Origin: Allomuricauda sp. TMED12 | Lineage (GTDB): Bacteria; Bacteroidota; Bacteroidia; Flavobacteriales; Flavobacteriaceae | Length of the DNA: 64,000 nucleotides | Direction of reading: 5' to 3' | NCBI GenBank assembly: GCA_002167435.2 | Contig: NHBR02000083.1 | Span: 1 to 64,000, forward strand | Shown here: in pieces, positions 35,669 to 60,556 of the stretch | Layout: each line of letters opens with the position of its first letter | Position numbering within the stretch: position 1 is the stretch's first letter | Position numbers and translations under genes: made by a program | Notes under the pieces: generated by a model | Database searches by the model: none | Seen by the model: only the letters and a program-made list of their open reading frames with translations | Told to the model about the DNA's origin: nothing

Positions 35669-35711
35669 CAAATCTATAACTACTAAAGCTAAAATTTAAT
35701 GACAATTGTCA
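35669..35711 (-). promoter_or_regulatory. Fnr-type class II promoter of raiA
   Basis: The perfect palindrome TGACAATTGTCA (35700-35711) lies 23 bases upstream of the minus-strand -7 box TAGATTTG (35676-35669). This puts the operator centre near -41.5. No -33 TTTG is present, as expected for an activator-dependent promoter. Confidence 0.75.
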
Positions 35712-35728
35712 GTTTAAATTTCACCTAT

Positions 35729-37048
35729 TTATCCCAAAGAGAAGGGTTGTCCCGTACTTTGTAAAACCGAGAACCAAAACTCTCCCTCAAGATCTATTTT
35801 TTTTCTCTTTTTTGTGACTTCGGAAATAGGCACATACACATAACGATTATTGACCCTACTTGCCACAAATTTGGTCTTTCCCGCCATGGCACCGTGTACT
35901 GCTTGATAAGCCAATCTACTACAAAATACACTATCGCTTGAGTTTGCCGGGGCACATCTCACAATATAACTCGGATCGATATATTTTATGGTTACTGGAC
36001 TTTTACCCTTAAAGTATTCCGCAATTTTTTCCTTTAGAAAAACCCCGATATCCTCATGCTGAATATTTCCAGATGCATCCTTAACGATCTTTCTATCTTC
36101 AAAGAGCTGTTGTCCTGCTCCTTCCGCGACTACAATAACTGCGTGTTTTTTCTTTTGTAAACGTTTCTCCAACACATTTAAAAAGCCTTCTTCACCATCT
36201 AGGGAAAAATCCATTTCTGGAATCAGCACAAAATTCACCACGGGCATGGCCAAAGCGGCCGAAGCTGCAATAAAACCACTATCCCTTCCCATTAATTTGA
36301 TAATGGAAATTCCATTATAAGCTCCCGTTGCCTCGTTATGTGCATCTCGCAAGATAGGACTGGCCACATCAAAAGCGGTCTCAAAACCGAAGGATTCATC
36401 TATAAGGTCAATGTCATTATCAATGGTCTTTGGAATTCCCACAACACTGATTTTTGCATTCCTCTTGGAAATCTCTTCCCCCAAAGCATTTACGCCTTTC
36501 AAGGTTCCATCGCCTCCAATGGCAAATAGCATATCTACCTTATTATCTTGAAGTGTGTCGACCATCACGGAAACATCTTGCGCACCTCGGGACGAGCCTA
36601 AAAAAGTACCTCCGAATTGATGGATATCCTTTACTTTTTCGGGTGTCAATTCTATAAGTTCATGTCCCTTTTCAGGATTAAGGCCTTCATAACCATAGGG
36701 CACTCCAATGATTTTCTTGACCCCATAAAAATAATGCAAGGCCATTACCAAGCCCCGGATCACATTGTTGATTCCAGGGCATAGCCCTCCACATGTAACA
36801 ATCGCTGCGGTTGTATTTTCGGAATCAAAAAATAGGTTTTGCCTTGGGCCCGCTTTCTCCAAACAAAGTGGTTCCTCGCCTTTTTCTAAACATTTTTGGT
36901 AATGTTCCATGGAGAGATCAAAAACCAACTTATCAGATTCCCTGATAAAATCGAATATATGATCACCTTTTAGTGTACCAAGCTCTAGGGGCGACATAAA
37001 TTCAGGCACCCCTAAGCTTTCTATATTAAATCTGTTTCTGTCGTTCAC
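35729..37048 (-). CDS. pfkA: 6-phosphofructokinase
   Basis: A 439-residue phosphofructokinase of the long clade related to plant and trypanosomatid ATP-PFKs and PPi-PFKs. Motifs are VTCGGLCPGINNVIRG, FAIGGDGTLKG, GIPKTIDNDIDLID, KLMGRDSGFIAA and IPEMDF. The donor-site residues combine the ATP-type GGDG with the PPi-type PKTIDND. I recall this mix from ATP-using trypanosomatid enzymes, so ATP is the likelier donor, but PPi cannot be excluded. The start is GTG. It is the last gene of the usp-SLC13-pckA-pfkA operon, 12 bases after pckA. Confidence 0.9.
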   Translation of the reverse strand: MNDRNRFNIESLGVPEFMSPLELGTLKGDHIFDFIRESDKLVFDLSMEHYQKCLEKGEEPLCLEKAGPRQNLFFDSENTTAAIVTCGGLCPGINNVIRGLVMALHYFYGVKKIIGVPYGYEGLNPEKGHELIELTPEKVKDIHQFGGTFLGSSRGAQDVSVMVDTLQDNKVDMLFAIGGDGTLKGVNALGEEISKRNAKISVVGIPKTIDNDIDLIDESFGFETAFDVASPILRDAHNEATGAYNGISIIKLMGRDSGFIAASAALAMPVVNFVLIPEMDFSLDGEEGFLNVLEKRLQKKKHAVIVVAEGAGQQLFEDRKIVKDASGNIQHEDIGVFLKEKIAEYFKGKSPVTIKYIDPSYIVRCAPANSSDSVFCSRLAYQAVHGAMAGKTKFVASRVNNRYVYVPISEVTKKRKKIDLEGEFWFSVLQSTGQPFSLG

Positions 37049-37060
37049 TATATATTAATC

Positions 37061-38677
37061 TTAAAGATGTTCCGTCAAACTGTGATGCGAATCAATCAGT
37101 GGACCTCCATTCATAATTTCTTCTGAAGCTTGACTTGCAAACTTGTCAAAGTTAATATGGAACGAGTGTGCCAATTGTATCGCTTTGCTCACATAAGCTC
37201 CTTTTTGTAACCAAGTATTCATCGGATCCAAAATTTCCGTTGGAACCCCTGGACAATATTTTGGCATAAACAGGCCAAATATTGGGTGCGTATCAAAATC
37301 CACATCATCCAGTTTGCCCTCAAGAATGGCAGATATCATCCCTCTTGTGTATTTAAGCTTGATTCTAGACCCCACTCCATAAGGTCCTCCACTCCATCCA
37401 GTATTGACCAACCAAACATTAACACCTGAGGCTTTCATTTTTTCACTCAACATCTCTGCATAAACCGTTGGGTGCAATGGCATAAATGGTTCTCCAAAAC
37501 ATGCGGAGAATGATGGAACCGGTTCAGTAATGCCTGCCTCGGTACCAGCAACTTTGGCCGTATAGCCCGAGATAAAGTGATACGCAGCTTGACCTGGGGT
37601 CAATTTGGATACCGGAGGCAATACCCCAAAGGCATCACAAGTTAAGAAAAAGATATTTTTAGGGTTAGAGGCGTAGGAAGGCTCTTGAATATTATCGATA
37701 TGGTAGATAGGATAACTCACCCTCGTGTTCTGGGTGATGGAACTATCAAAATAATCCACCTCTTTGGTTCCCTTTTTGAATACCACGTTTTCCAACAATG
37801 CTCCGGGTCGGATAGCCCTGTAAATATCCGGTTCCTTTTCTTCAGTAAGGTCGATTACTTTAGCATAACAACCACCTTCAAAATTAAAGATGGTATCCTC
37901 TTTGGTCCATCCATGTTCATCATCCCCAATAAGTTTACGGTCAGGGTCTGCGGACAAGGTGGTTTTTCCCGTACCTGATAGCCCAAAGAAAATGGCAGTA
38001 TCACCATCTTCCCCAACATTGGCGGAGCAGTGCATGGGCAGCACTTCCTTTTCAGTTGGAAGGATAAGGTTAAGGGCGGAAAAGATACCTTTTTTCATTT
38101 CTCCGGTGTAGGCAGAACCTGCAACCAATGCAATTTTTTTAGTAAAGTTGAGAATGGAGAAGTTTCCACTTAAAATTCCAAAATCAGAAGGGTTCTGGGC
38201 TTCATAACCCGGAGCGCACAATACGAGCCACTCTTCTTCAAAATCTTCCAATTCGTTCTCATTCAACCGTAAAAACATGTTTTTAATGAAGTAATTGGAC
38301 CAAGGATATTCTGTAATGGTCCTAACATTCATTTTATATTTTGGGTCGGCACAAACGGCAGCATCCCTTACAAAAACTTCTTTACCCTCTAGATATTTAG
38401 TGACCTCACCGTACAATTTATCGAAGTTTTCCGGAGAAACTGGTTTATTGATTCTGCCCCACCATACCTTCTCCTTGGTATAGTCATCTTTTACCAAAAA
38501 ACGGTCCTTTGGTGATCGCCCTGTGAATTTACCCGTATTTACACAAAGGGTCCCGTTTTCGGTTTCGACCCCCATGTCTTTTTCGAGTGTTAGCTTTTGT
38601 AAGGTTTCGGCATCGAGATTCCATTGAGCCCGGACATTTTTTAATCCATACTTGCTTAAGTCTTTGATTGTGGTCAT
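37061..38677 (-). CDS. pckA: ATP-dependent phosphoenolpyruvate carboxykinase
   Basis: A 538-residue PEPCK that interconverts oxaloacetate + ATP and PEP + CO2 + ADP. The P-loop GLSGTGKTTLS, kinase-2 motif LIGDDEHGW, CSANVGEDGDTAIFFG and FTGRSPKDRFLV are all present. In anaerobic Bacteroidota this enzyme commonly runs in the carboxylating, ATP-forming direction toward succinate. Its placement in an Fnr-type operon with PFK and an SLC13 transporter fits that use here (inference). It lies 18 bases after the SLC13 gene. Confidence 0.96.
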   Translation of the reverse strand: MTTIKDLSKYGLKNVRAQWNLDAETLQKLTLEKDMGVETENGTLCVNTGKFTGRSPKDRFLVKDDYTKEKVWWGRINKPVSPENFDKLYGEVTKYLEGKEVFVRDAAVCADPKYKMNVRTITEYPWSNYFIKNMFLRLNENELEDFEEEWLVLCAPGYEAQNPSDFGILSGNFSILNFTKKIALVAGSAYTGEMKKGIFSALNLILPTEKEVLPMHCSANVGEDGDTAIFFGLSGTGKTTLSADPDRKLIGDDEHGWTKEDTIFNFEGGCYAKVIDLTEEKEPDIYRAIRPGALLENVVFKKGTKEVDYFDSSITQNTRVSYPIYHIDNIQEPSYASNPKNIFFLTCDAFGVLPPVSKLTPGQAAYHFISGYTAKVAGTEAGITEPVPSFSACFGEPFMPLHPTVYAEMLSEKMKASGVNVWLVNTGWSGGPYGVGSRIKLKYTRGMISAILEGKLDDVDFDTHPIFGLFMPKYCPGVPTEILDPMNTWLQKGAYVSKAIQLAHSFHINFDKFASQASEEIMNGGPLIDSHHSLTEHL

Positions 38678-38695
38678 ATCAGTGATTTTTGATGG

Positions 38696-40531
38696 TTAGA
38701 AGCTCCATATCCATGGAACCAATAATAAGGTTGCTATAAAGAAAAGTAGGAGCAAAGGCCCGCCTACTTTTGCATAATCAATAAATTTATATCCTCCCGC
38801 CCCCATCACCATGGCATTTGTGGTGGTTCCCACAGGTGTTAAAAATGCGGTCGAAGCACTAACGGCCACAGCAATCATAAAAGGTTTTGGTGAAACCCCC
38901 AAGGTTATGGATGCCATTACCGCTATTGGCGCCATTAATACTGCTGTTGCCGAGTTATTAATGGTTTGGCTGAAAGCCGCTGTCAATAAAAATATGCCTG
39001 CCAATAATGCCACAGGATGTATATTACCCAAAGTATTCACCAAACTATTGGCAGCTAATTGTGCCACACCTGTTTTTTGCAATGCCAATCCCATAGGTAT
39101 CATGGCAGCAATCATTACCACACTAGTCCAGCTAATCCCTTTGTACGCCTTGGAAATGGGCACACAGCCCGTTAGCATCATAATTCCGGCACAAACCAGT
39201 GCTGCAATAGCACCTGGCAATATTTTGAAAACCAAGAGTAGTATCATTAAAACCAAGGTTCCCATAGCAATATAACTTCTTGTGGTCAACTGGTCCACAT
39301 TTTTAGCAAGGGCTTCGGGGCTTCCTGAAATAACCAAGTTCTCGTACATAGATTTCAGTGCTATAATATTTTCCCACTGTCCGCGAATCACGAAGGCATC
39401 ACCCGCCTTAATCTTTATCTTACCAGTCAGCGGGGCATTATCTCGTGACACAGCCAAGAGCTGCACTCCCGCCTGTTTCAGGTAATGTCCCAAATTAATG
39501 GTCTTGCCCACAAAAACGGATTTAGGGGTAATGAGCATCTCTGCCATACCCACCTCTTGGTTGATCAGCTCTTTTTTGAGCATGTCCTTTTCAGGTTTTA
39601 GCGGTATTACCCCCAAGTGAAACTTCAGCACAAGTTTATCCACATCTTCTGGCTCGCCTTTCACTGTAATAATGTCGTGATAGCGCATTTCAGTATCCAA
39701 CCCTGGCATTTCCACAAATTGTGGAATTCTGTGAAGTTTGTTGGGGTGCCTACGTTTTAAACGCATAACGGAAACTCGCTGTTCCCCCTCAAAATTCCAG
39801 TCTCCTATTTTGGAATTTATCAATTGCGACATGGACCTTATACGTAATCTATACAGATTATCCCCTATACTGTAATTCTCTATCCATTTATGCATTTCTT
39901 GATCAATGGCCATCGGCTTATTGTTTGTCCTATGTGTAGGCAACAACTTGTAACCGATATACCTAAAATAGAGAACGGATATAATAAGAAGTGGAACTCC
40001 AATCAATCCAAATTCAAAGAACGAAAAGCCTTCAAATCCATTCTGGACCAAGGCATTGCTCACGATAATGTTAGGTGGGGTACCTGTTAATGTTAACAAT
40101 CCACCTGTATTCGAACCAAACGCTACTGGAATCAATAACTTAGAGGGCAGCGTGCCCGCATTCCAAGCGGCAGTTACCGTAACGGGAAGCAATGCCGCAA
40201 CGGTACCCGTATTGCTCACAAAGCCAGACAATAAGCTAGAACCCAATGTTACAATAACCAATAAGCGTGAAATATTCCTTCGTGCCCATTTCACAAAAAA
40301 TTGTCCTGCCATGGCGGTCCACCCGGTCCTGGAAAGCCCCTCTCCAATAATAAATAAGGCGGCAATCATGATCACCGTTGGATTGCTAAACCCCGCCAAA
40401 GTCTCACTGATATCCAAAATACCTGCAAGAAAAAGCGAGAGCATGGCCATCAGGGCCACAACATCCGGCGGAAACTTGCCCCATATAAACAAGAAAATGG
40501 TAATACCTAAAATAATCAGCAGTGGCAGCAT
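38696..40531 (-). CDS. SLC13/DASS-type transporter with RCK_C domains
   Basis: A 611-residue membrane transporter of the divalent anion:sodium symporter type. The first repeat has SGFVSNTGTVAALLP and GSNTGGLLTLTGTPPNIIVSNAL. The second has QTINNSATAVLMAPIAV and TPVGTTTNAMVMGAGGYKF. A central cytosolic insert (about residues 205-390) carries two TrkA-C/RCK_C-like modules. Substrates of the family are dicarboxylates, citrate or sulfate. Because it lies between a usp gene and pckA, a C4-dicarboxylate is my best guess. It is 22 bases downstream of usp. Confidence 0.88.
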   Translation of the reverse strand: MLPLLIILGITIFLFIWGKFPPDVVALMAMLSLFLAGILDISETLAGFSNPTVIMIAALFIIGEGLSRTGWTAMAGQFFVKWARRNISRLLVIVTLGSSLLSGFVSNTGTVAALLPVTVTAAWNAGTLPSKLLIPVAFGSNTGGLLTLTGTPPNIIVSNALVQNGFEGFSFFEFGLIGVPLLIISVLYFRYIGYKLLPTHRTNNKPMAIDQEMHKWIENYSIGDNLYRLRIRSMSQLINSKIGDWNFEGEQRVSVMRLKRRHPNKLHRIPQFVEMPGLDTEMRYHDIITVKGEPEDVDKLVLKFHLGVIPLKPEKDMLKKELINQEVGMAEMLITPKSVFVGKTINLGHYLKQAGVQLLAVSRDNAPLTGKIKIKAGDAFVIRGQWENIIALKSMYENLVISGSPEALAKNVDQLTTRSYIAMGTLVLMILLLVFKILPGAIAALVCAGIMMLTGCVPISKAYKGISWTSVVMIAAMIPMGLALQKTGVAQLAANSLVNTLGNIHPVALLAGIFLLTAAFSQTINNSATAVLMAPIAVMASITLGVSPKPFMIAVAVSASTAFLTPVGTTTNAMVMGAGGYKFIDYAKVGGPLLLLFFIATLLLVPWIWSF

Positions 40532-40553
40532 GCTTAATGGTCAAGGTTTAGGT

Positions 40554-41345
40554 TTAGTCAAGGGCCAACACCGGAATCTCCGAATGCAAGGTCAAAAGTT
40601 TGGTCAATCTGCCTTCAGATGGCTCACTCTTTTCCGTATGGTTTCGTGGCAAAATAGTTAACATGTCAATGTTTTTCTCAGTGATATAATCCAATATTCC
40701 TTGTTCCACATCATCATTTTTACTAAAAGAGTGGTCTTCATAAAAATGTTCCAAATAGTATTCCAACAGATTTTCATTCGACTCTTTAATGGCCTCCTCA
40801 TCATAAATGGACTCTTTGTAAATGGTCAGTGCATGGACGCGTGCATCAAAAGTGCGGGCAACATCCAAAAGGGTTTCCAAAACCTCTTTATCATCGATTT
40901 TTTCGCCACCCATTACCAAAGCAATGTTTTTGGGCTCCTTGATACTTGTTCCATAAGGAACTGATATTACAGGGCAGTTGGCTTTCAAAACCAATTTTGA
41001 AGTGTTGGTGATCGCTTCGTCTGTAATTTTATCGCCCATGGTTCCCATCATGATCAAATCTGCATTGCTCTTTTCTTGGGCCGACAGAATGGTACCAATC
41101 ACTTCACCCGTATCCGTAGTAAATTCCGGAGCAATTTTCAATTTCACATCAAAAGAATCCATCACTTTGGAAAAATCCTTTTCCAACTTTTCATTGTCCG
41201 TTTCACTAATGGGCATATTGCCCACATAAAGACCTAAAATACCTATGGAACGTTCTGTTCCAATAAAATTGACCACATATTCCAAGGCATTGATGGATGC
41301 CTCTGAAAAATCAAAAGGGATTAATATTTTTTTTAAACTGCTCAT
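40554..41345 (-). CDS. Universal stress protein (tandem UspA domains), usp1
   Basis: A 263-residue protein with two UspA domains, about residues 1-140 and 145-263. The first begins LKKILIPFDFSEASINALEY and has LIMMGTMGDK. Such proteins bind ATP or small ligands and aid survival under energy or oxygen stress. ATG 41345 is chosen because the longer reading frame would start inside the -7 box at 41379-41386. It heads an operon with SLC13, pckA and pfkA, controlled by an Fnr-type site. Confidence 0.88.
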   Translation of the reverse strand: MSSLKKILIPFDFSEASINALEYVVNFIGTERSIGILGLYVGNMPISETDNEKLEKDFSKVMDSFDVKLKIAPEFTTDTGEVIGTILSAQEKSNADLIMMGTMGDKITDEAITNTSKLVLKANCPVISVPYGTSIKEPKNIALVMGGEKIDDKEVLETLLDVARTFDARVHALTIYKESIYDEEAIKESNENLLEYYLEHFYEDHSFSKNDDVEQGILDYITEKNIDMLTILPRNHTEKSEPSEGRLTKLLTLHSEIPVLALD

Positions 41346-41378
41346 ACCTATTTTATTTATTGATTTCAATACTCTATC

Positions 41379-41421
41379 CAAAAGTAGAATCGGCCCATGA
41401 CCTAAAACATGACAGAAGTCA
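41379..41421 (-). promoter_or_regulatory. Fnr-type class II promoter of usp-SLC13-pckA-pfkA
   Basis: The dyad TGACAGAAGTCA (41410-41421) lies 23 bases upstream of the minus-strand -7 box TACTTTTG (41386-41379), the same geometry as at raiA. The predicted leader is about 28 bases. Confidence 0.75.
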
Positions 41422-41540
41422 GGATTTCCAACTTTTCTATGATATTAGGAAAAAATCCGTCCCTATAAAAGTACGGGAAGTTATTTTTTTGACGTCATAT
41501 TAATTATATTTAAAAACCATAAAATAACTAGACTTTAAAT

Positions 41541-42509: not shown

Positions 42510-42541
42510 AACATCTTATTTTCCCTAAAAAGGATAATCTA

Positions 42542-42585
42542 TGACAAGTATCATACTCTACCATTGGTTTTAATGAGAAACTTTG
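42542..42585 (+). promoter_or_regulatory. Fnr-type promoter of the DUF2490 gene
   Basis: The dyad TGACAAGTATCA (42542-42553) is followed after 24 bases by AAACTTTG (42578-42585), a -7 box that keeps TTTG but lacks TA. This is one base off the spacing of the other sites and is the weakest member of the set. Confidence 0.5.
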
Positions 42586-42612
42586 TACTCCAACAATCCA
42601 AAACCTTAGATT

Positions 42613-43326: not shown

Positions 43327-43373
43327 AAACATAAGTCATTCATAACAAAGGAGTTTCGACCCATAAATAAACC

Positions 43374-43416
43374 TGATTATTATCATGTTTTTTAATTTTT
43401 AACCAAGTTACCTTTA
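43374..43416 (+). promoter_or_regulatory. Fnr-type class II promoter of the TonB gene
   Basis: The dyad TGATTATTATCA (43374-43385) lies exactly 23 bases upstream of TACCTTTA (43409-43416). The predicted leader to ATG 43439 is about 18 bases. Confidence 0.7.
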
Positions 43417-43438
43417 ACCTAGTTAAATAGTAAAAGTC

Positions 43439-44167: not shown

Positions 44168-44183
44168 ACACAATCCAAATAAA

Positions 44184-44217
44184 GAAAGGTCCAAGTTTAT
44201 ACTTGGGCCTTTTTTTA
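44184..44217. terminator. Bidirectional terminator after the TonB gene
   Basis: AAGGTCCAAGT pairs with ACTTGGGCCTT (one G-U) around TTAT and is followed by seven T. The A-rich left flank lets it also serve the convergent AstE-like gene, whose stop lies within it. Confidence 0.82.
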
Positions 44218-45417: not shown

Positions 45418-45421
45418 ATTA

Positions 45422-47298: not shown

Positions 47299-47341
47299 TA
47301 AAGATACGATGTCGGCAACACGAAAAACATGATACTCATCA
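47299..47341 (-). promoter_or_regulatory. Fnr-type class II promoter of the GCS2-CBS/AstE-like operon
   Basis: The dyad TGATACTCATCA (47330-47341) lies exactly 23 bases upstream of the minus-strand -7 box TATCTTTA (47306-47299). The predicted leader is about 27 bases. Confidence 0.7.
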
Positions 47342-47381: not shown

Positions 47382-47424
47382 TGACAATTATCATGTTTTT
47401 TGCAAGCCATCAAAAGTAATTTTG
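47382..47424 (+). promoter_or_regulatory. Fnr-type class II promoter of hemN-usp
   Basis: The dyad TGACAATTATCA (47382-47393) lies exactly 23 bases upstream of the perfect -7 box TAATTTTG (47417-47424). The predicted leader to hemN is about 22 bases. Confidence 0.8.
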
Positions 47425-47450: not shown

Positions 47451-48809
47451 ATGTGCGAATTAGTTCAAAAATATAATGTTCCTGGCCCTCGATATACGAG
47501 TTACCCGACTGTACCGTATTGGGATTTGGAAACTTTTTCAGGAAAAAAATGGAAATCCAGTGTACTGAAAGCATTTGGGGAAAGTCCAGAAGAAGGAATC
47601 AGTGTTTATATACACTTGCCCTTTTGCGAAAGTATGTGCACCTTTTGTGGATGCCATAAACGCATAACAAAACGACACGAAGTGGAACGGCCGTATATAA
47701 ATGCGGTTTTAAAAGAATGGCAATTATACGTCGACCTTATGGGCTCCAAACCCGTTATAAAGGAACTACATTTAGGTGGTGGCACGCCCACCTTTTTTTC
47801 TCCAGAAAACTTAAAAATACTGATTGAGGGCATTGTTCGCCTGAGCAAAAAAACGGATGAAATTGAATTCAGTTTTGAAGGTCATCCCAATAACACCACC
47901 AAAGAACATTTGCAAGCACTTTACGATGTAGGGTTTAGAAGAGTATGTTTTGGTGTCCAGGATTATAACCTCACCGTTCAACGTGCGATAAATAGAATAC
48001 AGCCCTTTGAAAACGTGAAAAATGTAACTGAATGGGCCAGGGAGATTGGCTACACATCAGTAGGACACGATATCATTTATGGCCTGCCATTTCAGGAAAG
48101 TGGGGACGTGGAGAATACTATAGCAAAGACCAATGCCATAAAACCGGATAGAATTGCTTTTTACAGCTATGCGCATGTGCCTTGGTTAAAAGGTAACGGA
48201 CAAAGAGGTTATAAAGAATCCGACCTTCCCTCTTCCGAAGAGAAAAAGGCACAATACGAAATGGGAAAAAGGATGCTTGGCGAGTTTGGTTACAAAGATG
48301 TTGGGATGGATCATTTTGCCTTACCCACCGATAGTTTGTACAAAGCTTTGGAAAACGGAACACTACATAGGAACTTTATGGGCTACACCCCTTCCAAAAC
48401 CAAATTAATGGTTGGTTTAGGAGTATCGAGCATTAGCGATAGTTGGTATGGTTTTGCCCAGAACGTAAAAAACGTGGAAGAATACGAAAATTTGGTTTCA
48501 CATGGAGTTATCCCTATTTTTAGGGGGCACATTCTTAATGCTGAAGACGAAATCTTAAGAAGGCATATCCTCAACATCATGTGTCAATTTGAGACCACAT
48601 GGGACGTAGAGGAAGAACAAATAGTTGATTTTGAAAATATTTTGGCCAACCTATCGGAATTGGAAACGGACGGATTGGTCGAAATAAACGGCACAAATAT
48701 TAAAGTGACCGACAAAGGAAGACCTTTTGTAAGAAACATAAGTATGGCATTTGACTTAAAAATGCATCGAAAAAAACCAAATACCCGAATATTTTCCATG
48801 ACCGTTTAA
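47451..48809 (+). CDS. hemN: Oxygen-independent coproporphyrinogen III oxidase
   Basis: A 452-residue radical-SAM enzyme that converts coproporphyrinogen III to protoporphyrinogen IX without oxygen. The cluster motif CESMCTFCGC gives Cys59, Cys63, Cys66 and a fourth Cys68, as in bona fide HemN. The N-terminal YNVPGPRYTSYPTVPYW, LHLGGGTPTFF and YSYAHVPWLKGNQ-like segment (YSYAHVPWLKGNGQR) separate it from HemW. It is the first gene of a two-gene operon with usp2 and has a strong Fnr-type promoter, fitting haem supply for the cbb3 oxidase at low oxygen. Confidence 0.95.
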   Translation: MCELVQKYNVPGPRYTSYPTVPYWDLETFSGKKWKSSVLKAFGESPEEGISVYIHLPFCESMCTFCGCHKRITKRHEVERPYINAVLKEWQLYVDLMGSKPVIKELHLGGGTPTFFSPENLKILIEGIVRLSKKTDEIEFSFEGHPNNTTKEHLQALYDVGFRRVCFGVQDYNLTVQRAINRIQPFENVKNVTEWAREIGYTSVGHDIIYGLPFQESGDVENTIAKTNAIKPDRIAFYSYAHVPWLKGNGQRGYKESDLPSSEEKKAQYEMGKRMLGEFGYKDVGMDHFALPTDSLYKALENGTLHRNFMGYTPSKTKLMVGLGVSSISDSWYGFAQNVKNVEEYENLVSHGVIPIFRGHILNAEDEILRRHILNIMCQFETTWDVEEEQIVDFENILANLSELETDGLVEINGTNIKVTDKGRPFVRNISMAFDLKMHRKKPNTRIFSMTV

Positions 48810-48826
48810 CCTAAAAAAGCAATAAA

Positions 48827-49720: not shown

Positions 49721-49744
49721 TGTTACAACCAATTTTTATTGACC

Positions 49745-51013
49745 CTAACCATGAAATCTTTCGTAGGCCGCTTTTTCCAGTGCTTCCCGATGATTTGGGT
49801 GTGCTATGGAAATTAAAGCTTCGGCCCGTTGATGTAGGTTTTTCCCAAAAAGATTCACCACACCATATTCTGTTGCTACATAGTGCATGTGGGCACGAGT
49901 GGTTGTTACCCCTGCACCCTGTTTTAAAAAGGGCGTTATTTTGGAAACTCCTTTTTTTGTGGTAGATGACATGGCTATGATGGGCTTTCCCCCTTTTGAA
50001 AGGGATGCCCCTCTCATAAAATCCATTTGTCCGCCCACTCCGGAGAATTGATATCCCCCAATGGTATCCGCGCAAACTTGGCCTGTCAAATCAATTTCTA
50101 TAGCACTATTAATAGCGGTCGCTTTCGGGTTTCTTCGGATTCTGGCCGTATCGTTGGTATAACCGGAGTCCCTAAAATCACATATGGGGTTGTCATCAAT
50201 GAAATCATATAGTTTTCGGGAACCCACTGCAAAGCAGCTTACAATTTTACCACGTTTTACTGCTTTTTCCTTTCCGTTTATGACACCACTTTCCAACAAA
50301 GGCAGAACCCCATCAGAAAACATTTCGGTATGAATTCCCAGGTTTTTATGGTTTCCTAAATTAGACAATACCGCGTTGGGTATGTTACCAATTCCCATTT
50401 GCAAAGTAGCACCATCTTCGATCAACGATGCCACATGCCTACCAATTTCATGTTCCACTTCCGATATTTCGGTCGGGTTATGTTCGTGAATGTGCCTATC
50501 TACCTCAATGGCAAATTCTATTTCATCTACATGAACAATACCTGTACCATGTGTTCGGGGAACTTGGGGATTTATCTGCGCTACAATTTTTTTGGCAGTT
50601 CTAACCGCTGGCAATGCAACATCAACGGATACTCCCAGTGAACAATATCCATGTTTGTCCGGAGGCGACACCTGAACAAAGGCCACATCCAAAGGAAGGT
50701 ACTCGTCGGCGAACAACCATGGTATTTCACTCAAAAATACAGGAATGTAATCGCCCATGTATGTGTTTACAAAATTCCTTACGTTGCCCCCAACAAAACA
50801 AGCGTTCAAAGTAAAGGCATCGCAATAAGGTTTTCTAGTATACTTAGCATCTCCTTCGGTATGGATGGAAATAATCTCTACATCATTAAGTTCCTCATGC
50901 CTATCACATAAGGCATCTATCAATTCGTTTGGGGTCATGGCCGCCCCTTGGAAAAAGACCCGGTCGCCTGATTTAACAATTCCTACCGCCTCTTTCGCTG
51001 ATGTTATTTTCAT
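49745..51013 (-). CDS. Acetyl-CoA hydrolase/CoA-transferase family protein
   Basis: A 422-residue enzyme of the acetyl-CoA hydrolase/4-hydroxybutyrate CoA-transferase family. Such enzymes move CoA between acyl groups (for example succinyl-CoA and acetate). Seen are FFQGAAMTPNELIDAL at the start, HTEGDAKY, VALPAVRTAKKIVAQINPQVPRTHG, MGIGNIPNAVL and the active-site Glu region GIHTEMFSDG. ATG 51013 is chosen because the longer frame overlaps the upstream gene. It lies 14 bases after the TauE/SafE gene and is the last gene of the cco operon, so it is probably induced at low oxygen. The exact acyl substrates are unknown. Confidence 0.88.
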   Translation of the reverse strand: MKITSAKEAVGIVKSGDRVFFQGAAMTPNELIDALCDRHEELNDVEIISIHTEGDAKYTRKPYCDAFTLNACFVGGNVRNFVNTYMGDYIPVFLSEIPWLFADEYLPLDVAFVQVSPPDKHGYCSLGVSVDVALPAVRTAKKIVAQINPQVPRTHGTGIVHVDEIEFAIEVDRHIHEHNPTEISEVEHEIGRHVASLIEDGATLQMGIGNIPNAVLSNLGNHKNLGIHTEMFSDGVLPLLESGVINGKEKAVKRGKIVSCFAVGSRKLYDFIDDNPICDFRDSGYTNDTARIRRNPKATAINSAIEIDLTGQVCADTIGGYQFSGVGGQMDFMRGASLSKGGKPIIAMSSTTKKGVSKITPFLKQGAGVTTTRAHMHYVATEYGVVNLFGKNLHQRAEALISIAHPNHREALEKAAYERFHG

Positions 51014-51027
51014 TGTGGATTTTATTT

Positions 51028-51738
51028 TTAGGGTTGATGGCATTCTATGGTCGCCGTTACTGAATCTGCTGGAGCTGACTTGGGGGAAACAAAGGGTATT
51101 CCCAATCCCAGTCCACGTACAATAAACAAAATACCTATGATGACCACAAATACCGGAATCAATTTCTGTATCTTAAATTTGATGGCACTACTGAACATTC
51201 CTTTGGAATAGACCACCAAGGACATAAGGGGAACGGTCCCCAATCCAAAAATCATCATGTAAAGACCGCCTTCCAAAGCACTTCCCATAGCAATGGCACC
51301 CAAAAGGGCCATATACACGAGACCGCAGGGTAAAAAGCCGTTCAAGAAACCAATGGTCAAAAAAGTATCGGGGGTCTTTTTTTTAAGTTCAGCGCCCAAT
51401 TTGGATTTCACCTTACCGATAATGGAGTAAATAGGTGATAAAAATTTATGCCCGTTCAAGTATTTTCCTGGAATCAGTACTAAAAGAATCATAAGTACAC
51501 CAATACCTATGGATAGTTTCTGCTGAATCCCGAAAAGGGACAAGCCCTTGCCCAAAAGACCAAATAGTACCCCAATAACACCATAAGCCAAAAGTCTTCC
51601 AAAATGGTAGATGGACAACTGTGTGGTCTTCTTTAGATTGTTTTCTTGATTCAAAGGCAGCATAAAGGCTATTGGCCCGCACATACCCAAGCAGTGCAAG
51701 CTTCCCAAAAGCCCTAAAACCAACGCGGATGTCAACAT
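51028..51738 (-). CDS. TauE/SafE-like membrane protein of the cco operon
   Basis: A 236-residue, about six-TM protein of the sulfite exporter TauE/SafE superfamily, UreH/DsbD-like subgroup. The signature SLHCLGMCGPIAF is in the first helix and NGFLPCGLVYMALLGA in the second half. The paired Cys residues could handle copper or thiols. Proteins of this kind regularly follow fixH in Bacteroidota and Proteobacteria cco clusters, suggesting a role in oxidase maturation. It starts 2 bases after the fixH stop. Confidence 0.8.
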   Translation of the reverse strand: MLTSALVLGLLGSLHCLGMCGPIAFMLPLNQENNLKKTTQLSIYHFGRLLAYGVIGVLFGLLGKGLSLFGIQQKLSIGIGVLMILLVLIPGKYLNGHKFLSPIYSIIGKVKSKLGAELKKKTPDTFLTIGFLNGFLPCGLVYMALLGAIAMGSALEGGLYMMIFGLGTVPLMSLVVYSKGMFSSAIKFKIQKLIPVFVVIIGILFIVRGLGLGIPFVSPKSAPADSVTATIECHQP

Positions 51739-51740
51739 GA

Positions 51741-52187
51741 TCAGTAGACCAATTTTTGTTTATGCAAAAAGGAATTACCTTCGTATTCCCAGTTTATGGA
51801 AATGTCCCAGCGACCGTCTACCAAGCGATTGTCAGGTATGAGCAAATGTGTTTTGGACAAACTTATAGAAAAGTTAGTATCCAAATGCTTGTTAGACGGT
51901 CTATATAGGGACACTGTTCCACTTATTTTTTTTGGGTCGAAACGCTCTGGAAAATAAATCACCAAACCCTCTTCAGTTTTTTCAACCTTTAGGTTGGCAT
52001 TCATTTCCGACGCTGTATTTGATGCATCGATTTCCTGCTGATAGGATAATTCTTTTTTATAGTATTCCTCCGTCACCAAATCGTGGTTGGCCCGATCATC
52101 GGTGCTCATCCTGAAGACGAAGTATAAAATGAAGGTTATAAAACCTATAAATGCCAAGACAATTCCCGTTCCCCAATTAATTTTCAT
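51741..52187 (-). CDS. fixH: FixH/CcoH-type oxidase assembly protein
   Basis: A 148-residue protein with one N-terminal TM helix (about residues 6-26, GTGIVLAFIGFITFILYFVF) followed by the family segment DLVTEEYYKKELSYQQEIDA and a periplasmic beta-rich domain ending WEYEGNSFLHKQKLVY. FixH helps assemble cbb3 oxidase. It is 10 bases downstream of ccoG, the standard order. Confidence 0.9.
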   Translation of the reverse strand: MKINWGTGIVLAFIGFITFILYFVFRMSTDDRANHDLVTEEYYKKELSYQQEIDASNTASEMNANLKVEKTEEGLVIYFPERFDPKKISGTVSLYRPSNKHLDTNFSISLSKTHLLIPDNRLVDGRWDISINWEYEGNSFLHKQKLVY

Positions 52188-52197
52188 TTCAATCTTT

Positions 52198-53607: not shown

Positions 53608-53657
53608 CGCATGTGTGGTTTATGGATAAATATTTGTTGCCTATGTGTCTCAAAGGA

Positions 53658-54632: not shown

Positions 54633-54636
54633 AATG

Positions 54637-54825
54637 TTATAGTTTGTTTTGTTGATCTTCGTTATCCAATGGCAGTTCGGACATCTCCCTTATGTGTTCT
54701 TTGGTAGCGGTAAACACCCACCAGAACAATAGAACAAAAAACACAAAGAAGATTAGTAGGGAAACCATGGGATAGTTGGCTATCCCATCGATGGTTTCCA
54801 TATGTTCTTTTACAAATTTCAACAT
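54637..54825 (-). CDS. ccoQ: CcoQ-type small oxidase subunit
   Basis: A 62-residue protein with one TM helix (about residues 20-42, MVSLLIFFVFFVLLFWWVF) and a charged C-terminus. Its size and place between ccoNO and ccoP identify it as CcoQ, which stabilises the cbb3 complex. It starts 2 bases after the ccoNO stop. Confidence 0.85.
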   Translation of the reverse strand: MLKFVKEHMETIDGIANYPMVSLLIFFVFFVLLFWWVFTATKEHIREMSELPLDNEDQQNKL

Positions 54826-54827
54826 GG

Positions 54828-57029
54828 TTATTTGTTTTGAGATATAGTTTCTTCTGTTCCTTTAATTTTGATATCAGTACCCAATCGCTGCAGATAAGCA
54901 ATCAAGGATACGATTTCACGATCTCGCATTTCCACAAAATCCAATCCGTTTTCCTCGGCGTATTTTTTATCCGCTTCATACGTTTTTGCGAATTCAGGAT
55001 CCGTGTAAAGGTTCTTTTCGATTTGCTCTGCTTGCTCTGCCATGGATTGCGGAGCATTAGCAATATCCTCTTCGGTATATGGAACTCCAAGTTTTACCAT
55101 GGTTTCCATTTTTGCCTGTACATCGCTGCGGTCGTGCTCATCGGTGACCAACCATTCATAAGATGGCATGATTGAGCCCGCAGAAGTACTTTGCGGATCG
55201 TACATGTGGTTCAAGTGCCAGTTATCGGAATACTTGCCACCAATTCGCAACAAGTCGGGACCTGTACGTTTACTCCCCCAAAGAAATGGGTGGTCGTAAA
55301 CAAACTCCCCTGCCTTGGCGTATTCCCCATAACGTTCCACCTCGCTTCGGAACGGCCTGATCATTTGTGAGTGACAGCCTACACATCCTTCTCTTATATA
55401 AAGATCTCGACCTTCCAATTCCAGTGGTGTATAGGGCTTAACACTTGTAATGGTCGGTATGTTGGATTTCACCAATATGGTCGGTATAATTTGAACCACA
55501 CCTCCGATCAGGATGGCAACGGTGGCCAAGATGGTCAACTGAACAGGTTTTCTTTCCAACCAGTTGTGGAAAGTTTCACCTGCCACTCTTCTTTTGGCAA
55601 CTCGTTCCAATGCTGGTGCTTCTGCTTCTTCATCCTCTACTTTGCTACCAGACCTGATGGTCAGCACAACATTGTAAAGCAAAACAAACATTCCCAAGAT
55701 ATAAAGGGACCCTCCAATAGCCCTCATCCAGTACATGGGAATGATCTGGGTCACGGTTTCCAAGAAGTTACCGTAAACCAAGGTACCATCGGGGTTGAAT
55801 TCTTTCCACATAAGAGCTTGGGTGAATCCAGCTACATACATTGGAAGGGCATAAAGCACAATACCCAAAGTTCCTATCCAGAAGTGGAAATTCGCCAATC
55901 CTTTGGAGTGCAATTCTGTTTTGAACATTCGCGGCACCAACCAATAGATCATACCAAAGGTCAAGAACCCGTTCCAAGCCAATGCACCAACGTGAACGTG
56001 TGCAATAATCCAGTCACTAAAGTGAGCAATGGCATTTACGTTTTTCAAAGAAAGCATTGGACCTTCAAATGTAGCCATACCATAACCTGTAATTGCTACT
56101 ACCATAAATTTTAATGTGGCATCGGTACGAACTTTATCCCATACCCCGCGGAGCGTCAACAATCCGTTGATCATACCACCCCAGGATGGAGCGATCAACA
56201 TAACAGAGAACACCACACCCAAGTTCTGCGCCCAATCAGGCAAAGCAGAATACAATAAGTGGTGAGGACCTGCCCAGATATAAATGAATATCAGTGACCA
56301 GAAGTGGACGATGGAAAGTCTATAGGAATAAATGGGACGGTTGGCCGCCTTTGGAACAAAGTAGTACATCAACCCCAAGAAAGGAGTGGTCAAGAAGAAT
56401 GCCACTGCATTGTGACCGTACCACCACTGCACCAAGGCATCCTGTACACCTGCATATACGGAATAACTTTTAAGTGCGGTTACTGGAAGCTCCAAGCTGT
56501 TAAAAATGTGCAACACAGCTACGGTAACAAAGGTGGCCAAATAGAACCATATTGCCACATATAAGTGCCTTTGCCTTCTTTTTAAAATGGTACCGATCAT
56601 GTTCCAACCAAAGACTACCCAAACAACTGCAATGGCTAAATCTATTGGCCATTCCAACTCTGCATATTCTTTGGATGTGGTGTACCCAAGCGGTAATGTC
56701 AACGCGGCAGCGACAATAATCAATTGCCAGCCCCAGAAGTTGATGTTACTCAAGGCATCACTGAACATTCTTGCTTTTAGCAAGCGTTGCAAAGAGTAAT
56801 ACACCCCTGCAAAAATCGCGTTCCCCACAAATGCAAAGATCACCGCATTGGTATGCAATGGGCGTAAACGTCCAAAACTCAACCAAGAGATACCTTCTGT
56901 AACATTGGGGAACAAAAACATAAAGGCCAACAAGAGACCTACCGACATACCTACCACGCCCCATAAAATGGTTGCGTATAAGAACTTTTGTACGATTTTG
57001 TTATCGTAACGGAACTGTTGTATTTCCAT
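54828..57029 (-). CDS. ccoN: cbb3 oxidase CcoN-CcoO fusion
   Basis: A 733-residue fusion. Residues 1 to about 480 are CcoN, the catalytic subunit with haem b, haem b3 and CuB. Ligand regions seen are RPLHTNAVIFAFVGN, WWYGHNAVAFFLT, GPHHLLYSALPDW and AHVHVGALAWNGF. After a short linker, residues from about 510 are CcoO with a TM anchor and the haem c site CVGCHSQMIRP near residue 549. CcoO is a separate protein in Proteobacteria; the fusion is typical of Bacteroidota. It lies 2 bases after ccoS in the operon and is the core of high-affinity oxygen respiration. Confidence 0.95.
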   Translation of the reverse strand: MEIQQFRYDNKIVQKFLYATILWGVVGMSVGLLLAFMFLFPNVTEGISWLSFGRLRPLHTNAVIFAFVGNAIFAGVYYSLQRLLKARMFSDALSNINFWGWQLIIVAAALTLPLGYTTSKEYAELEWPIDLAIAVVWVVFGWNMIGTILKRRQRHLYVAIWFYLATFVTVAVLHIFNSLELPVTALKSYSVYAGVQDALVQWWYGHNAVAFFLTTPFLGLMYYFVPKAANRPIYSYRLSIVHFWSLIFIYIWAGPHHLLYSALPDWAQNLGVVFSVMLIAPSWGGMINGLLTLRGVWDKVRTDATLKFMVVAITGYGMATFEGPMLSLKNVNAIAHFSDWIIAHVHVGALAWNGFLTFGMIYWLVPRMFKTELHSKGLANFHFWIGTLGIVLYALPMYVAGFTQALMWKEFNPDGTLVYGNFLETVTQIIPMYWMRAIGGSLYILGMFVLLYNVVLTIRSGSKVEDEEAEAPALERVAKRRVAGETFHNWLERKPVQLTILATVAILIGGVVQIIPTILVKSNIPTITSVKPYTPLELEGRDLYIREGCVGCHSQMIRPFRSEVERYGEYAKAGEFVYDHPFLWGSKRTGPDLLRIGGKYSDNWHLNHMYDPQSTSAGSIMPSYEWLVTDEHDRSDVQAKMETMVKLGVPYTEEDIANAPQSMAEQAEQIEKNLYTDPEFAKTYEADKKYAEENGLDFVEMRDREIVSLIAYLQRLGTDIKIKGTEETISQNK

Positions 57030-57031
57030 AT

Positions 57032-57241
57032 TTATTGGTTTGTACTTTTAGTTTGTTTGATTTCCTTTTTATTTAGGTTTGATTTATCCTTGTCACTGAC
57101 CACCTCATCCTCAAACAACATTCTTACCGATGGGGTATAGGTATCATCGTATTGTCCGCTTTTTACTGAAAAAACAAAGGCTATAAAAAAGACTATGGCC
57201 ACCGTTATGCTAATGGCCAGCAACACATAAATAACACTCAT
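57032..57241 (-). CDS. ccoS: CcoS oxidase maturation protein
   Basis: A 69-residue protein with one TM helix at residues 3-25 (VIYVLLAISITVAIVFFIAFVF) and the family segment SVKSGQYDDTYTPSVRMLFED. CcoS is needed for cofactor insertion into CcoN. It is the first gene of the cco operon. Its promoter overlaps the end of ccoI. Confidence 0.92.
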   Translation of the reverse strand: MSVIYVLLAISITVAIVFFIAFVFSVKSGQYDDTYTPSVRMLFEDEVVSDKDKSNLNKKEIKQTKSTNQ

Positions 57242-57260
57242 ACCCTTGTTAAATTTGGGT

Positions 57261-57303
57261 TAAAACTACATTGATGATATCCTTCAAAAAATGACATATA
57301 TCA
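57261..57303 (-). promoter_or_regulatory. Fnr-type class II promoter of the cco operon
   Basis: The dyad TGACATATATCA (57292-57303) lies exactly 23 bases upstream of the minus-strand -7 box TAGTTTTA (57268-57261). The last three bases of the dyad are the ccoI stop codon (57301-57303). The predicted leader is about 15 bases. Confidence 0.75.
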
Positions 57304-59685
57304 GCTTTCTAAAGTTTTTAATTCTTTACCGAGATAATTTGTTGCCAAGGTCGTGAACACCACAATACTTATGGAACTCAACGGCATTAGAATAGCGGCA
57401 ATAACAGGCTGTAATTGACCTGTAACAGCAAAATACAATCCTACAATATTATAGCAGAGCGATAGCAAAAAGCTCATTTTTATTATCCGAATGGACTTTT
57501 TGGACAGTGTAATGAACTTTGGCAGCATTCTCAGTTTGCTCGCATCCAAAATTCCATCACAAGCTGGCGAAAACACGTTGATGTTTTCGGAAACGGCCAA
57601 ACCCACATCACTTTGGGCCAAAGCACCGGCATCGTTCAATCCATCACCAACCATTAAAACTTTGTGGTTTTCCTGCAGACTTTTGATGTATTCCAGCTTG
57701 CCCTCGGGCTTTTGATCGAACATCATTTTTGTCTTTTCTGGCAGCATTATTTGGAGCTGTTCCTTTTCCCCATCGTTATCTCCGGAAAGGATGCCGAGTT
57801 CCAAATCGGTCCCTAGTTCCTCAAAAATTTGACTCATACCATCCCGATACGTATTCTTGAAAACAAAACGACCTTTTACGTCCTCATCTGCACTTATATA
57901 AACCGTGGTATTGGTCAAAGAGTTTGCCTTATTCTCACCAACATAGGAAGCAGAGCCAACTTTAATGGAGTGTTGGTTGTATTTTCCCTCAATGCCTTTT
58001 CCTGTATGCTCTTGGAACTCTTCCAGGGTCATGATGGCATTCGACTTTAAAATATTATAGAGTGACCGGCTCAACGGGTGGTTAGATGCCCTTAAGGTTG
58101 TTTTTAAAAGTGCCGTCTCCTCTTCTGTGAGTTCCATCCCTTCATAGTGGATGGTATCTTTTATGTTTGTTGTGAGGGTTCCTGTCTTATCAAAAATAGC
58201 GGTATCGATTTTCGATAACCGCTCGATTACATTAGTGTTCTTTAGATAGAATTTATGTTTTCCAAAAATACGGAGCATATTGCCCAACGTGAACGGAGCT
58301 GCCAAAGCAATGGCACACGGACAGGCAATGATCAAGACAGAAGTGAAAACGTTAAGGGCCAAACTCGGCTCCAACATCAACCAAAAAATGGTGGCTACAG
58401 TGGCAATACTCAAAACTGCAATGGTAAACCGTTTGCCAATGCTATCGGTAAGGGTCTGAAATTGACTTGCCTTATCTTTTGAAAATATGGAGTTCCCCCA
58501 CAGCTGCGTTAAATAACTTTGGGAAACGGATTTTAATACTTCAACTTCCAAAACTCCCGAAAGTTGTTTACCGCCCGCAAACAATTTCTCTCCTGACTCC
58601 TTGAACACAGGTTCGGACTCACCAGTAACAAAACTATAATCAATCTCAGCTGTTCCTTTGATAAGGATACAGTCCACGGGAATGATTTCGTGACTACGGA
58701 TTAGTACCCTATCCCCTACTTCTATATTATAAATTTGAACATTCTCTTCTTCCCCGTCTTTCTTCAGTCGTGTAACAGCTATTGGGAAATAAGATTTGTA
58801 GTCCCGTTCGAATGATAGATAGGCATAGGTCTTTTGCTGAAAAAATTTCCCTAATAACAGGAAAAAGACCAATCCGGTAAGGCTATCAAAAAAACCGGAT
58901 CCCAAATCAAAAACTATATCAACGGTGCTTCGTAAAAAGAGCACCAATATTCCCAAAGCTATGGGGACATCAATGTTCAACAACTTGGAACGAATGCCTT
59001 TATAGGCTGAAATAAAATAATCTTGAGCGGCATAGAATACAACGGGCAAGGAAAAGGCGAACATCAACCAACGAAAAACGTGTTTGTATTGATCTAGCCA
59101 AAACTCTTCTACCTCGAAATATTCTGGGAAGGAAAACAGCATCACATTGCCAAAGGCAAAACCTGCAAACCCCAATTTATAAATTAAGGAACGATCCACC
59201 TTTTTTCCCTTTTTATTGTATTCCTCTAAAGAGATATAGGGTTCGTAACCAATGCTTCCCAACAAAAGCACTAATGCTTTTAGTGAGAAATCTTCAGTTT
59301 TATAGGTAACTCGAATGGTCTTCTTTGGGAAATCCACTTGCGAAAATGTAATGGCGGAATGTAGTTTGTTCAAGTTTTCCAATACCCAAATACAAGAACT
59401 ACAATGGATGGTAGGGATACTTAAACTGATTACTTGGACACCTTCTTCGTTAAATTCCACCAATTGCTGTACAATTTCCTGGTTGTCCAAAAAATCGTAT
59501 TTCTGGCGGATTTCGTTGGGTGTGGTTCCTGCCTTGCCTTCTATTTCATAAAAGGTGGACAGGCCATTTGATGTAAAAATCTCGTAGACGGTTTTACAAC
59601 CATTACAACAAAAGTCTTTATCATCAAACTCTACACTACTCTTACCGCACTCGTCTCCACAATGATAACAGGTCGAGTCTGCCAT
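57301..59685 (-). CDS. ccoI: CcoI-type copper-translocating P-type ATPase
   Basis: A 794-residue P1B ATPase that exports copper toward cbb3 oxidase assembly. The N-terminus has a Cys-rich zinc-ribbon-like region (CYHCGDEC; FCCNGCKTVYEIF) and an HMA domain with CSSC near residue 97. About eight TM helices follow, including the copper-site motif CPCAIALAAP. The phosphorylation site is DKTGTLT, with VTGESEP and GDGLNDAGAL. It is transcribed separately from, but directly upstream of, ccoS. It shares one operator with the divergent regulator. Confidence 0.95.
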   Translation of the reverse strand: MADSTCYHCGDECGKSSVEFDDKDFCCNGCKTVYEIFTSNGLSTFYEIEGKAGTTPNEIRQKYDFLDNQEIVQQLVEFNEEGVQVISLSIPTIHCSSCIWVLENLNKLHSAITFSQVDFPKKTIRVTYKTEDFSLKALVLLLGSIGYEPYISLEEYNKKGKKVDRSLIYKLGFAGFAFGNVMLFSFPEYFEVEEFWLDQYKHVFRWLMFAFSLPVVFYAAQDYFISAYKGIRSKLLNIDVPIALGILVLFLRSTVDIVFDLGSGFFDSLTGLVFFLLLGKFFQQKTYAYLSFERDYKSYFPIAVTRLKKDGEEENVQIYNIEVGDRVLIRSHEIIPVDCILIKGTAEIDYSFVTGESEPVFKESGEKLFAGGKQLSGVLEVEVLKSVSQSYLTQLWGNSIFSKDKASQFQTLTDSIGKRFTIAVLSIATVATIFWLMLEPSLALNVFTSVLIIACPCAIALAAPFTLGNMLRIFGKHKFYLKNTNVIERLSKIDTAIFDKTGTLTTNIKDTIHYEGMELTEEETALLKTTLRASNHPLSRSLYNILKSNAIMTLEEFQEHTGKGIEGKYNQHSIKVGSASYVGENKANSLTNTTVYISADEDVKGRFVFKNTYRDGMSQIFEELGTDLELGILSGDNDGEKEQLQIMLPEKTKMMFDQKPEGKLEYIKSLQENHKVLMVGDGLNDAGALAQSDVGLAVSENINVFSPACDGILDASKLRMLPKFITLSKKSIRIIKMSFLLSLCYNIVGLYFAVTGQLQPVIAAILMPLSSISIVVFTTLATNYLGKELKTLES

Positions 59686-59707
59686 TTCACATTTGCTTTA
59701 CCTGGTG

Positions 59708-59750
59708 CAAATTTGTAATACTCTTCTTCTTAAAAATATGATATTTATCA
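59708..59750 (-). promoter_or_regulatory. Fnr-type class II promoter of ccoI
   Basis: The dyad TGATATTTATCA (59739-59750) lies exactly 23 bases upstream of the minus-strand box CAAATTTG (59715-59708), which differs from TAnnTTTG only in its first base. The predicted leader to ccoI is about 18 bases. Confidence 0.7.
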
Positions 59751-59781
59751 GTAAATTGTTATTGTATATCAATTATTTTTG
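59739..59781 (+). promoter_or_regulatory. Fnr-type class II promoter of the regulator gene
   Basis: The same dyad, 59739-59750, lies exactly 23 bases upstream of the perfect plus-strand -7 box TATTTTTG (59774-59781). One operator is thus correctly spaced for both divergent genes, implying positive autoregulation or a shared switch. Confidence 0.78.
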
Positions 59782-59807
59782 TTGAATCAGGTAAACTAAT
59801 CATTATT

Positions 59808-60497
59808 ATGGAAAGCAGGTGTGAAAATTGTATAATTAGGCAGTTCAACTCATTACGTGCCATGAGCAAAGAAGAGTTGAAAAAAGTCTCTGACTCCAAA
59901 ACCACCAAGATCGTAAAAAAAGGTGAGCCCATATTTGAAGAGGGCGACAAACTCAATGGCGTCTACTGTGTTAGAAATGGGGTTTCCAAGCTTTCCAAGT
60001 TAAGTGCCAATGGAAAAGACCAAATTGTGAAGTTGGCCAGCAAAGGTGAAGTTCTTGGCCAGCGTTCGGTTATTTCCCAAGAGAGCACCAATCTTTCTGC
60101 CATTGCCGTAGATGATATGGAGGTTTGCTTTATTCCAAAGGAAAGTATCAACAATACCCTTCAAAAAAATCCGAATTTCACTCTGGAGGTTTTGCGTCAT
60201 ATGGCCCATGACCTCAAAGAAGCAGACGATGTAATTGTCAACATTTCCCAAAAAACGGTAAAACAAAGAATGGCGGAAGCTTTTCTATACCTAAAGAACA
60301 ATTTTGGAGAGGATTCCGATGGCTTTTTGGCCCTTACTCTATCTCGGGAAGATATTTCCAATGTTGTGGGTACCGCTACGGAATCTGCCATTAGAATCAT
60401 TTCCGAGTTCAAAAAGAAAGGCTTGATTCATACCTCGGGCAAGAAAATTGGCATCAAGGATGAACGTAAACTTTTGGAAATGGTCGAAGGCTTTTAG
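59808..60497 (+). CDS. Crp/Fnr-family transcriptional regulator (Fnr-like)
   Basis: A 229-residue regulator. A cyclic-nucleotide-type beta-roll spans about residues 22-120 (GEPIFEEGDKLNGVYCVRNGVSKL), a dimerisation helix about 121-150, and a winged helix about 155-225. The recognition helix reads SNVVGTATESAIRIISEF, where Glu192 and Arg196 align with the base-contacting Glu and Arg of E. coli Fnr; the Fnr Ser is Ile here. Cysteines are C5, C8, C54 and C107, so a 4Fe-4S cluster is possible but the spacing is not that of E. coli Fnr. Its divergence from ccoI over a shared dyad makes it the best candidate for the regulator of the whole region. Confidence 0.9.
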   Translation: MESRCENCIIRQFNSLRAMSKEELKKVSDSKTTKIVKKGEPIFEEGDKLNGVYCVRNGVSKLSKLSANGKDQIVKLASKGEVLGQRSVISQESTNLSAIAVDDMEVCFIPKESINNTLQKNPNFTLEVLRHMAHDLKEADDVIVNISQKTVKQRMAEAFLYLKNNFGEDSDGFLALTLSREDISNVVGTATESAIRIISEFKKKGLIHTSGKKIGIKDERKLLEMVEGF

Positions 60498-60513
60498 TTC
60501 ATTTTTAAAAAGC

Positions 60514-60556
60514 TGACAATTGTCATAGAATCCCCTACCCCATAGGTCTAATTTTA
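60514..60556 (+). promoter_or_regulatory. Fnr-type class II promoter of usp3
   Basis: The perfect palindrome TGACAATTGTCA (60514-60525), identical to the raiA site, lies exactly 23 bases upstream of TAATTTTA (60549-60556). The predicted leader to ATG 60577 is about 16 bases. Confidence 0.75.

Follow-up and report, generated by a model that had tools for sequence, protein, structure and literature searches.

The window analysed here is a 64,000-nucleotide (nt) stretch from the flavobacterium Allomuricauda sp. TMED12 (contig NHBR02000083.1). It carries, among others, genes for a cbb3 oxidase (cco), an enzyme of oxygen-independent heme synthesis (hemN), universal stress proteins (usp1, usp3) and a regulator of the Crp/Fnr superfamily. 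A first-pass annotation had placed the dyad TGAY-N4-RTCA in front of ten genes of the window, with a TAnnTTT[GA]-like -7 box 23 bases further on (24 in the DUF2490 promoter), and had read the set as an Fnr-type low-oxygen regulon. We re-examined this arrangement in the window, throughout its genome and in related genomes.

A dyad and a -7 box at fixed spacing

Sites, spacing and the genes behind them were read directly from the sequence. All ten dyads lie where they had been placed, and a recount of every promoter in the window returned a gap of 23 in nine and of 24 in DUF2490. The strict form of the box, TAnnTTT[GA], stands at gap 23 in eight of the ten promoters (raiA, usp1, tonB, GCS2-CBS, hemN, ccoS, crp/fnr and usp3), and its first T is missing in ccoI and DUF2490. 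For usp3, whose listed open reading frame (ORF) start at 60556 falls within the box, we adopted a start at about 60577. The eight strict composites compare with a mean of 0.015 and a maximum of 1 in 200 dinucleotide shuffles of the window, which likewise gave a mean of 4.8 palindromic dyads against the 14 present.

When the scan covered the whole genome (4.34 Mb, 150 contigs), whose closest named relatives are Allomuricauda/Flagellimonas, at gaps 22–24, it returned 40 composites, 37 of them at gap 23. Across gaps 10–38 there were 63, the 26 found at other gaps being scattered over the 28 remaining values. Since the reversed-pattern control alters word content, gap 21 was added as a second control and yielded a single composite; a relaxed search that included the arms and allowed up to 3 mismatches gave 27 matches, compared to 3 in the reversed control. 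At 36 of the 37 sites an ORF begins no more than 250 nt past the end of the box, and at 31 of them no more than 60 nt; the median distance is 26 nt. For ccoS the distance was entered as 231 nt because the count took the longer ccoNO frame, and only at site L010 did no ORF start within the 250 nt. Eight sites overlap a mechanical ORF of 60 amino acids (aa) or more, and one alone, L002, lies inside a long ORF (542 aa, opposite strand).

In a flavobacterial start map (PMC9723704) the TAnnTTTG box spans -12 to -5, and the leaders have a median length of 24. With the box so placed, a gap of 23 sets the dyad at -47 to -36 and its centre at -41.5, which agrees with the class II Crp/Fnr position proposed earlier; for DUF2490 the centre would be -42.5. 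The reported lack of a -33 TTTG also held, TTTG occurring in 8 of the 37 spacers compared to 7.65 in shuffled ones. A sigma-A promoter of Bacteroidota has a TTTG element at -33. Our sites share the -7 TAnnTTTG box with such promoters, but the place of the -33 TTTG is taken by the activator site, and two boxes (ccoI, DUF2490) deviate in their first base. The E. coli-type FNR box is TTGAT-N4-ATCAA, at -41.5 in class II promoters. Its core TGAT-N4-ATCA and its centre recur here, whereas the full site does not: the base 5' of TGA is A in 38%, C in 38%, G in 19% and T in only 5% of the 37 sites, and the -7 box is of the Bacteroidota kind. With a T directly after the dyad in 84%, the genomic logo reads [AC, less G, hardly T]TGAY-N4-RTCAT. 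AAA/TTT arms, strong in a logo pooled from 171 sites in relatives but weak in these 37, were rejected as a general rule because the pooled sites are mostly orthologues near the regulator.

Table 1. Promoters and genes discussed in the text; positions are those of the window unless a locus is named.
Feature	Position	Strand	Dyad	Gap	Box	Remarks
raiA promoter	35669..35711	-	35711-35700	23	TAGATTTG	raiA: Pfam Ribosomal_S30AE
usp1-SLC13-pckA-pfkA promoter	41379..41421	-	TGACTTCTGTCA	23	TACTTTTG	kept in 7/7 same-genus relatives
DUF2490 promoter	42542..42585	+	TGACAAGTATCA	24	AAACTTTG	
tonB-like gene promoter	43374..43416	+		23	TACCTTTA	kept in 7/7 same-genus relatives
GCS2-CBS gene promoter	47299..47341	-		23	TATCTTTA	Pfam detects CBS domain only
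hemN promoter	47382..47424	+		23	TAATTTTG	
ccoS promoter	57261..57303	-		23	TAGTTTTA	before ccoNO-ccoP-ccoG-ccoH
ccoI promoter	59708..59750	-		23	CAAATTTG	opposite-strand reading of crp/fnr palindrome
crp/fnr promoter	59739..59781	+		23	TATTTTTG	
usp3 promoter	60514..60556	+		23	TAATTTTA	
hemN	47451..48809	+				oxygen-independent coproporphyrinogen oxidase; TIGR00538 above cut-off
ccoNO	54828..57029	-				fusion, cbb3 oxidase
ccoS	57032..57241	-				FixS; Pfam PF03597
ccoI	57301..59685	-				heavy-metal P-type ATPase
Crp/Fnr regulator	59808..60497	+				229 aa; C5, C8, C54, C107; recognition helix GTATESAIRII
REC-Crp fusion	L181:6015-7064					receiver, cNMP, HTH; PAS histidine kinase adjoining
REC-Crp fusion	L182:3694-4767					receiver, cNMP, HTH; PAS histidine kinase adjoining

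Conservation, targets and the regulator's own promoter

Counted over 80 named loci that surround regulator orthologues, strict boxes at gaps of 21, 22, 23, 24 and 25 number 0, 0, 171, 1 and 3 (the 171 being the sum of two sets, 137 and 34). Dyad, box and gap stay constant among the relatives compared while the spacer bases vary, for example in the crp/fnr and usp3 promoters, and 6 of 7 relatives from the genus share the gap of 24 at DUF2490, the exception, G008, having no such dyad. The composite pattern is real and conserved.

Twenty-four genomes of the genus (our own included) hold 9–40 sites each, compared to 0–2 in the reversed control. Elsewhere in the order, site counts are 4–11 in seven genomes whose regulator homologue reaches E≤1e-43 and 0–3 in eight with a weaker homologue or none; the number of sites thus appears to follow the presence of the regulator. 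A phylum sample of 148 genomes, in which gap 23 was compared with gap 21, gave 234 vs 13 sites in 14 other genomes of the family, 22 vs 5 in 2 of the order, 98 vs 11 in 20 of the class outside the order, and 68 vs 38 in 111 genomes of other classes. The fewest composites in the genus sample (9) belong to G002, and its regulator frame (L054; G002:C265:24496-25182) has one TAG, which may be a draft error.

Outside the window, the Pfam scan took in 30 of 31 downstream proteins (28 at gap 23 and 2 at gap 24; L142, at gap 22, was left out). Matches were obtained for a NiFe hydrogenase small subunit, a flavin reductase, two cytochromes c, two thioredoxins, an MlaE permease, OmpW and FadL/TodX. Further matches are FtsH, a PAS-type kinase, an ABC1/UbiB kinase, PPDK, three Usp proteins and a biotin-lipoyl protein; the gap-24 genes encode a cytidylate kinase and CpsB. 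A protein matching the pyridine-nucleotide disulphide oxidoreductase family is read as SQR-like and one with a ferritin domain as Dps-like, each from its domain match, and among the 9 of 30 without a Pfam match at 1e-5 one is read as DoxX. The target set fits low-oxygen life, and PMC9723704 reports that cbb3 and heme enzymes of a flavobacterium rise when oxygen is limiting. Within the cco cluster, the genes after ccoG (49745-52187) encode FixH, a DsbD_2 protein and an acetyl-CoA hydrolase/transferase.

The targets recur in other genomes to different extents. The relative G007 has a single Crp/Fnr match (E≤0.001), yet 23 sites, and 14 of the 16 examined precede homologues of listed targets (doxX-like, two usp, ppdk, hydrogenase, sqr-like, cytochrome c, dps-like, biotin, HYC-like, ompW, thioredoxin, crp/fnr and usp3), while 2 do not. 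In six genomes of the same family (g17), such homologues follow 15 of 30 sites examined: ccoS four times, hemN and Usp three times each, OmpW twice, one small Cys-rich protein and two weak PAS matches.

At the regulator itself, a palindrome in 59708-59781 appears to be shared by the divergent crp/fnr and ccoI promoters, with a gap of 23 on each side. Of the 80 loci, 68 have a dyad no farther than 140 nt upstream of the regulator, with the box at gap 23 in 31, at gap 9 in 28, at gap 25 in 3, at gap 14 in 1 and at both 9 and 23 in 1. Nearly all gap-9 sites (29 of 30) are located at the regulator promoter, and a dyad at this gap would be centred at -27.5, covering the polymerase site, which we read as auto-repression. 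By this reading of the spacing, the regulator may activate itself in some clades (gap 23) and repress itself in others (gap 9); among the 62 loci with gap 9, 23 or 25, a quick tree, in which 35 of 77 inner branches are weak, needs 3 changes. In a Maribacter locus (L095), gap-9 and gap-23 boxes stand off one dyad upstream of the regulator, an arrangement that may be transitional from one mode of self-control to the other.

ccoI is divergent within 600 nt of the regulator in 70 of the 80 loci. On its side, NAnnTTTG occurs at gap 23 in 63 of the 80 relatives, the first base being C in 33, A in 19, G in 11 and never T. In 31 of the 80 loci (L061-L140) a further short word, AGGTAA (window about 59785-59800), stands at most 45 nt ahead of the regulator, where about 1.3 would be expected from background, although these loci are related and hence not independent; in 20 it also occurs on the ccoI side, at up to 140 nt, and in none of 139 other gap-23 leaders. 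We regard it as a candidate leader element of crp/fnr and ccoI.

The regulator protein

The regulator belongs to the Crp/Fnr superfamily, with PF00027 (cNMP-binding) and PF13545 (HTH) both above cut-off; its structure model has a pLDDT of 88.6, and among solved structures the closest in sequence are 2gau, itself a Crp/Fnr protein, and regulators of the FNR type. C5, C8 and C107 align with C20, C23 and C122 of FNR. Across 46 homologues, C8, C54 and C107 are invariant (46 of 46) and C5 is present in at least 90%. L114, L118 and L138, whose translations contain stops, were excluded from alignment A2. Three of the four FNR cluster cysteines (C20, C23, C29, C122) are therefore matched; an equivalent of C29 is absent in all 7 orthologues aligned, and C54 is present in all 7. 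In the recognition helix, GTATESAIR, the Glu and Arg of E. coli-type FNR are retained, whereas Ile replaces S212, which would fit the altered base preceding TGA. The NCBIfam Fnr model scores 112.2 bits against a cut-off of 228. In its C29 position, its S212 position and its NCBIfam score it thus departs from canonical FNR.

In the structure model C54 lies in strand 51-57 and C107 in strand 104-110. Five of 20 more distant paralogues have the canonical four-cysteine pattern and carry Phe or Tyr at position 54, none of them C54, which fits a swap of ligands. Other homologues do not suit a clean swap: in L216 and L219, C5, C8 and C107 are present but C54 is missing and the aligned third place has no cysteine either, L218 and L224 carry C54 and C107 without C8, and 15 of 38 homologues counted have an extra cysteine near 28, 14 of these with another near 58. 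We tentatively propose, with less than even confidence, a flavobacterial form of FNR with its cluster on C5, C8, C54 and C107, one ligand having moved from the N-terminal loop to a sensor-barrel strand; it would avoid the T of TTGAT, and its promoter would have been rewired by clade between auto-activation and auto-repression.

A predicted low-oxygen regulon and its alternatives

The spacing, the conservation across genera, the target content and the coupling to the regulator gene together support the earlier proposal, and we consider it very probable that the sites define a low-oxygen regulon of the class II Crp/Fnr kind, most likely run by the variant FNR encoded at 59808-60497. We infer that this protein binds the sites, activates from them and senses oxygen through a cluster on its four cysteines. 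At low oxygen, a dimer of the Crp/Fnr family would bind [A/C]TGAY-N4-RTCAT centred at -41.5 and recruit the RNA polymerase of the main sigma factor to a TAnnTTTR box without a -33 element, a form of class II activation adapted to Bacteroidota promoters. The genes switched on would be those for the cbb3 oxidase and its assembly, for the oxygen-independent synthesis of heme, and for hydrogenase and cytochromes, as well as universal stress proteins, a ribosome hibernation factor and others.

Flavobacteria are abundant in sea and soil, and the pattern is specific enough to outline a regulon, name a regulator and point to individual bases and residues open to testing. It suggests how a class II activator may work with the RNA polymerase of Bacteroidota, whose promoters are unlike those of E. 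coli, and its spacing allows regulon prediction across Bacteroidia. Among the matches listed for open-licence literature, no title or abstract opening described a flavobacterial Fnr or oxygen regulon or this composite, and the main text of PMC9723704 makes no mention of 'fnr' or 'crp'.

Several observations weigh against a low-oxygen regulon of this kind. The canonical FNR cysteine set is incomplete in the regulator, and genome size confounds its link with site number, since genomes that lack the regulator are smaller as well. Target conservation drops with distance: 15 of the 30 g17 sites lack a target homologue, and one was found at 1 of 10 sites in G025 (OmpW) and 1 of 4 in G036 (a Crp/Fnr gene), which together with the G007 matches suggests that the core of the regulon travels between genomes and its periphery does not. 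At the regulator, 12 of the 80 loci have no dyad and 4 have a dyad but no box. ccoI is missing next door in 9 of those 12, compared to one (L087) of the 68 loci with a dyad; the dyad thus follows ccoI more than self-control, and control of the regulator by itself may be secondary.

Instead of sensing oxygen by way of an iron-sulphur cluster, the 59808 protein could respond to heme, nitric oxide (NO) or redox state, and the regulon would follow that signal; the incomplete cysteine set favours this. According to PMC6955866, the Crp/Fnr protein PgRsp of P. gingivalis binds heme and lies near CooA, and heme is also named as the means by which HcpR senses NO. The conservation of C5, C8, C54 and C107, three of which align with FNR ligands, opposes this, and we judge such a signal unlikely. 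As far as the accessible parts of PMC1274295, PMC6955866 and PMC8510549 go, HcpR, PgRsp and MalR-like proteins share superfamily and phylum with the regulator, but the HcpR2 motif GTAACnnnnGTTAC differs from the dyad here, and the Flavobacteriales homologues in the MalR work are tied to MalR and carbon, not oxygen.

The true activators might instead be two REC-Crp response regulators (contigs C108 and C37), acting with their adjoining PAS histidine kinases in the manner of FixL-FixJ and leaving the 59808 protein secondary. Their helices IATESLIR and VAKETAIR resemble TATESAIR, a further point against our assignment, and gap-23 sites flank both loci. G007, however, keeps its sites and most of the targets examined with one Crp/Fnr match, so that the REC-Crp proteins would be unneeded for the remaining sites, and a site stands in the 59808 gene's own promoter. 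We find this account improbable as a whole, although the paralogues may act on some sites and control a subset. Usp genes, too, surround both REC-Crp loci. That A+T-rich intergenic DNA produced the composite by chance can practically be dismissed: dyad and box are both short and A+T-rich, but a chance motif would have no preferred gap, and the gap specificity, shuffles, wrong-gap control and conservation all oppose it.

Apart from these candidates, one homologue of the 59808 protein, L228 (G027:C2:817950-818950), has a nearly identical helix (GTATESAIRLI) and none of the four cysteines, in a genome with 11 sites; going by its sequence, it perhaps reads the same site in response to another signal.

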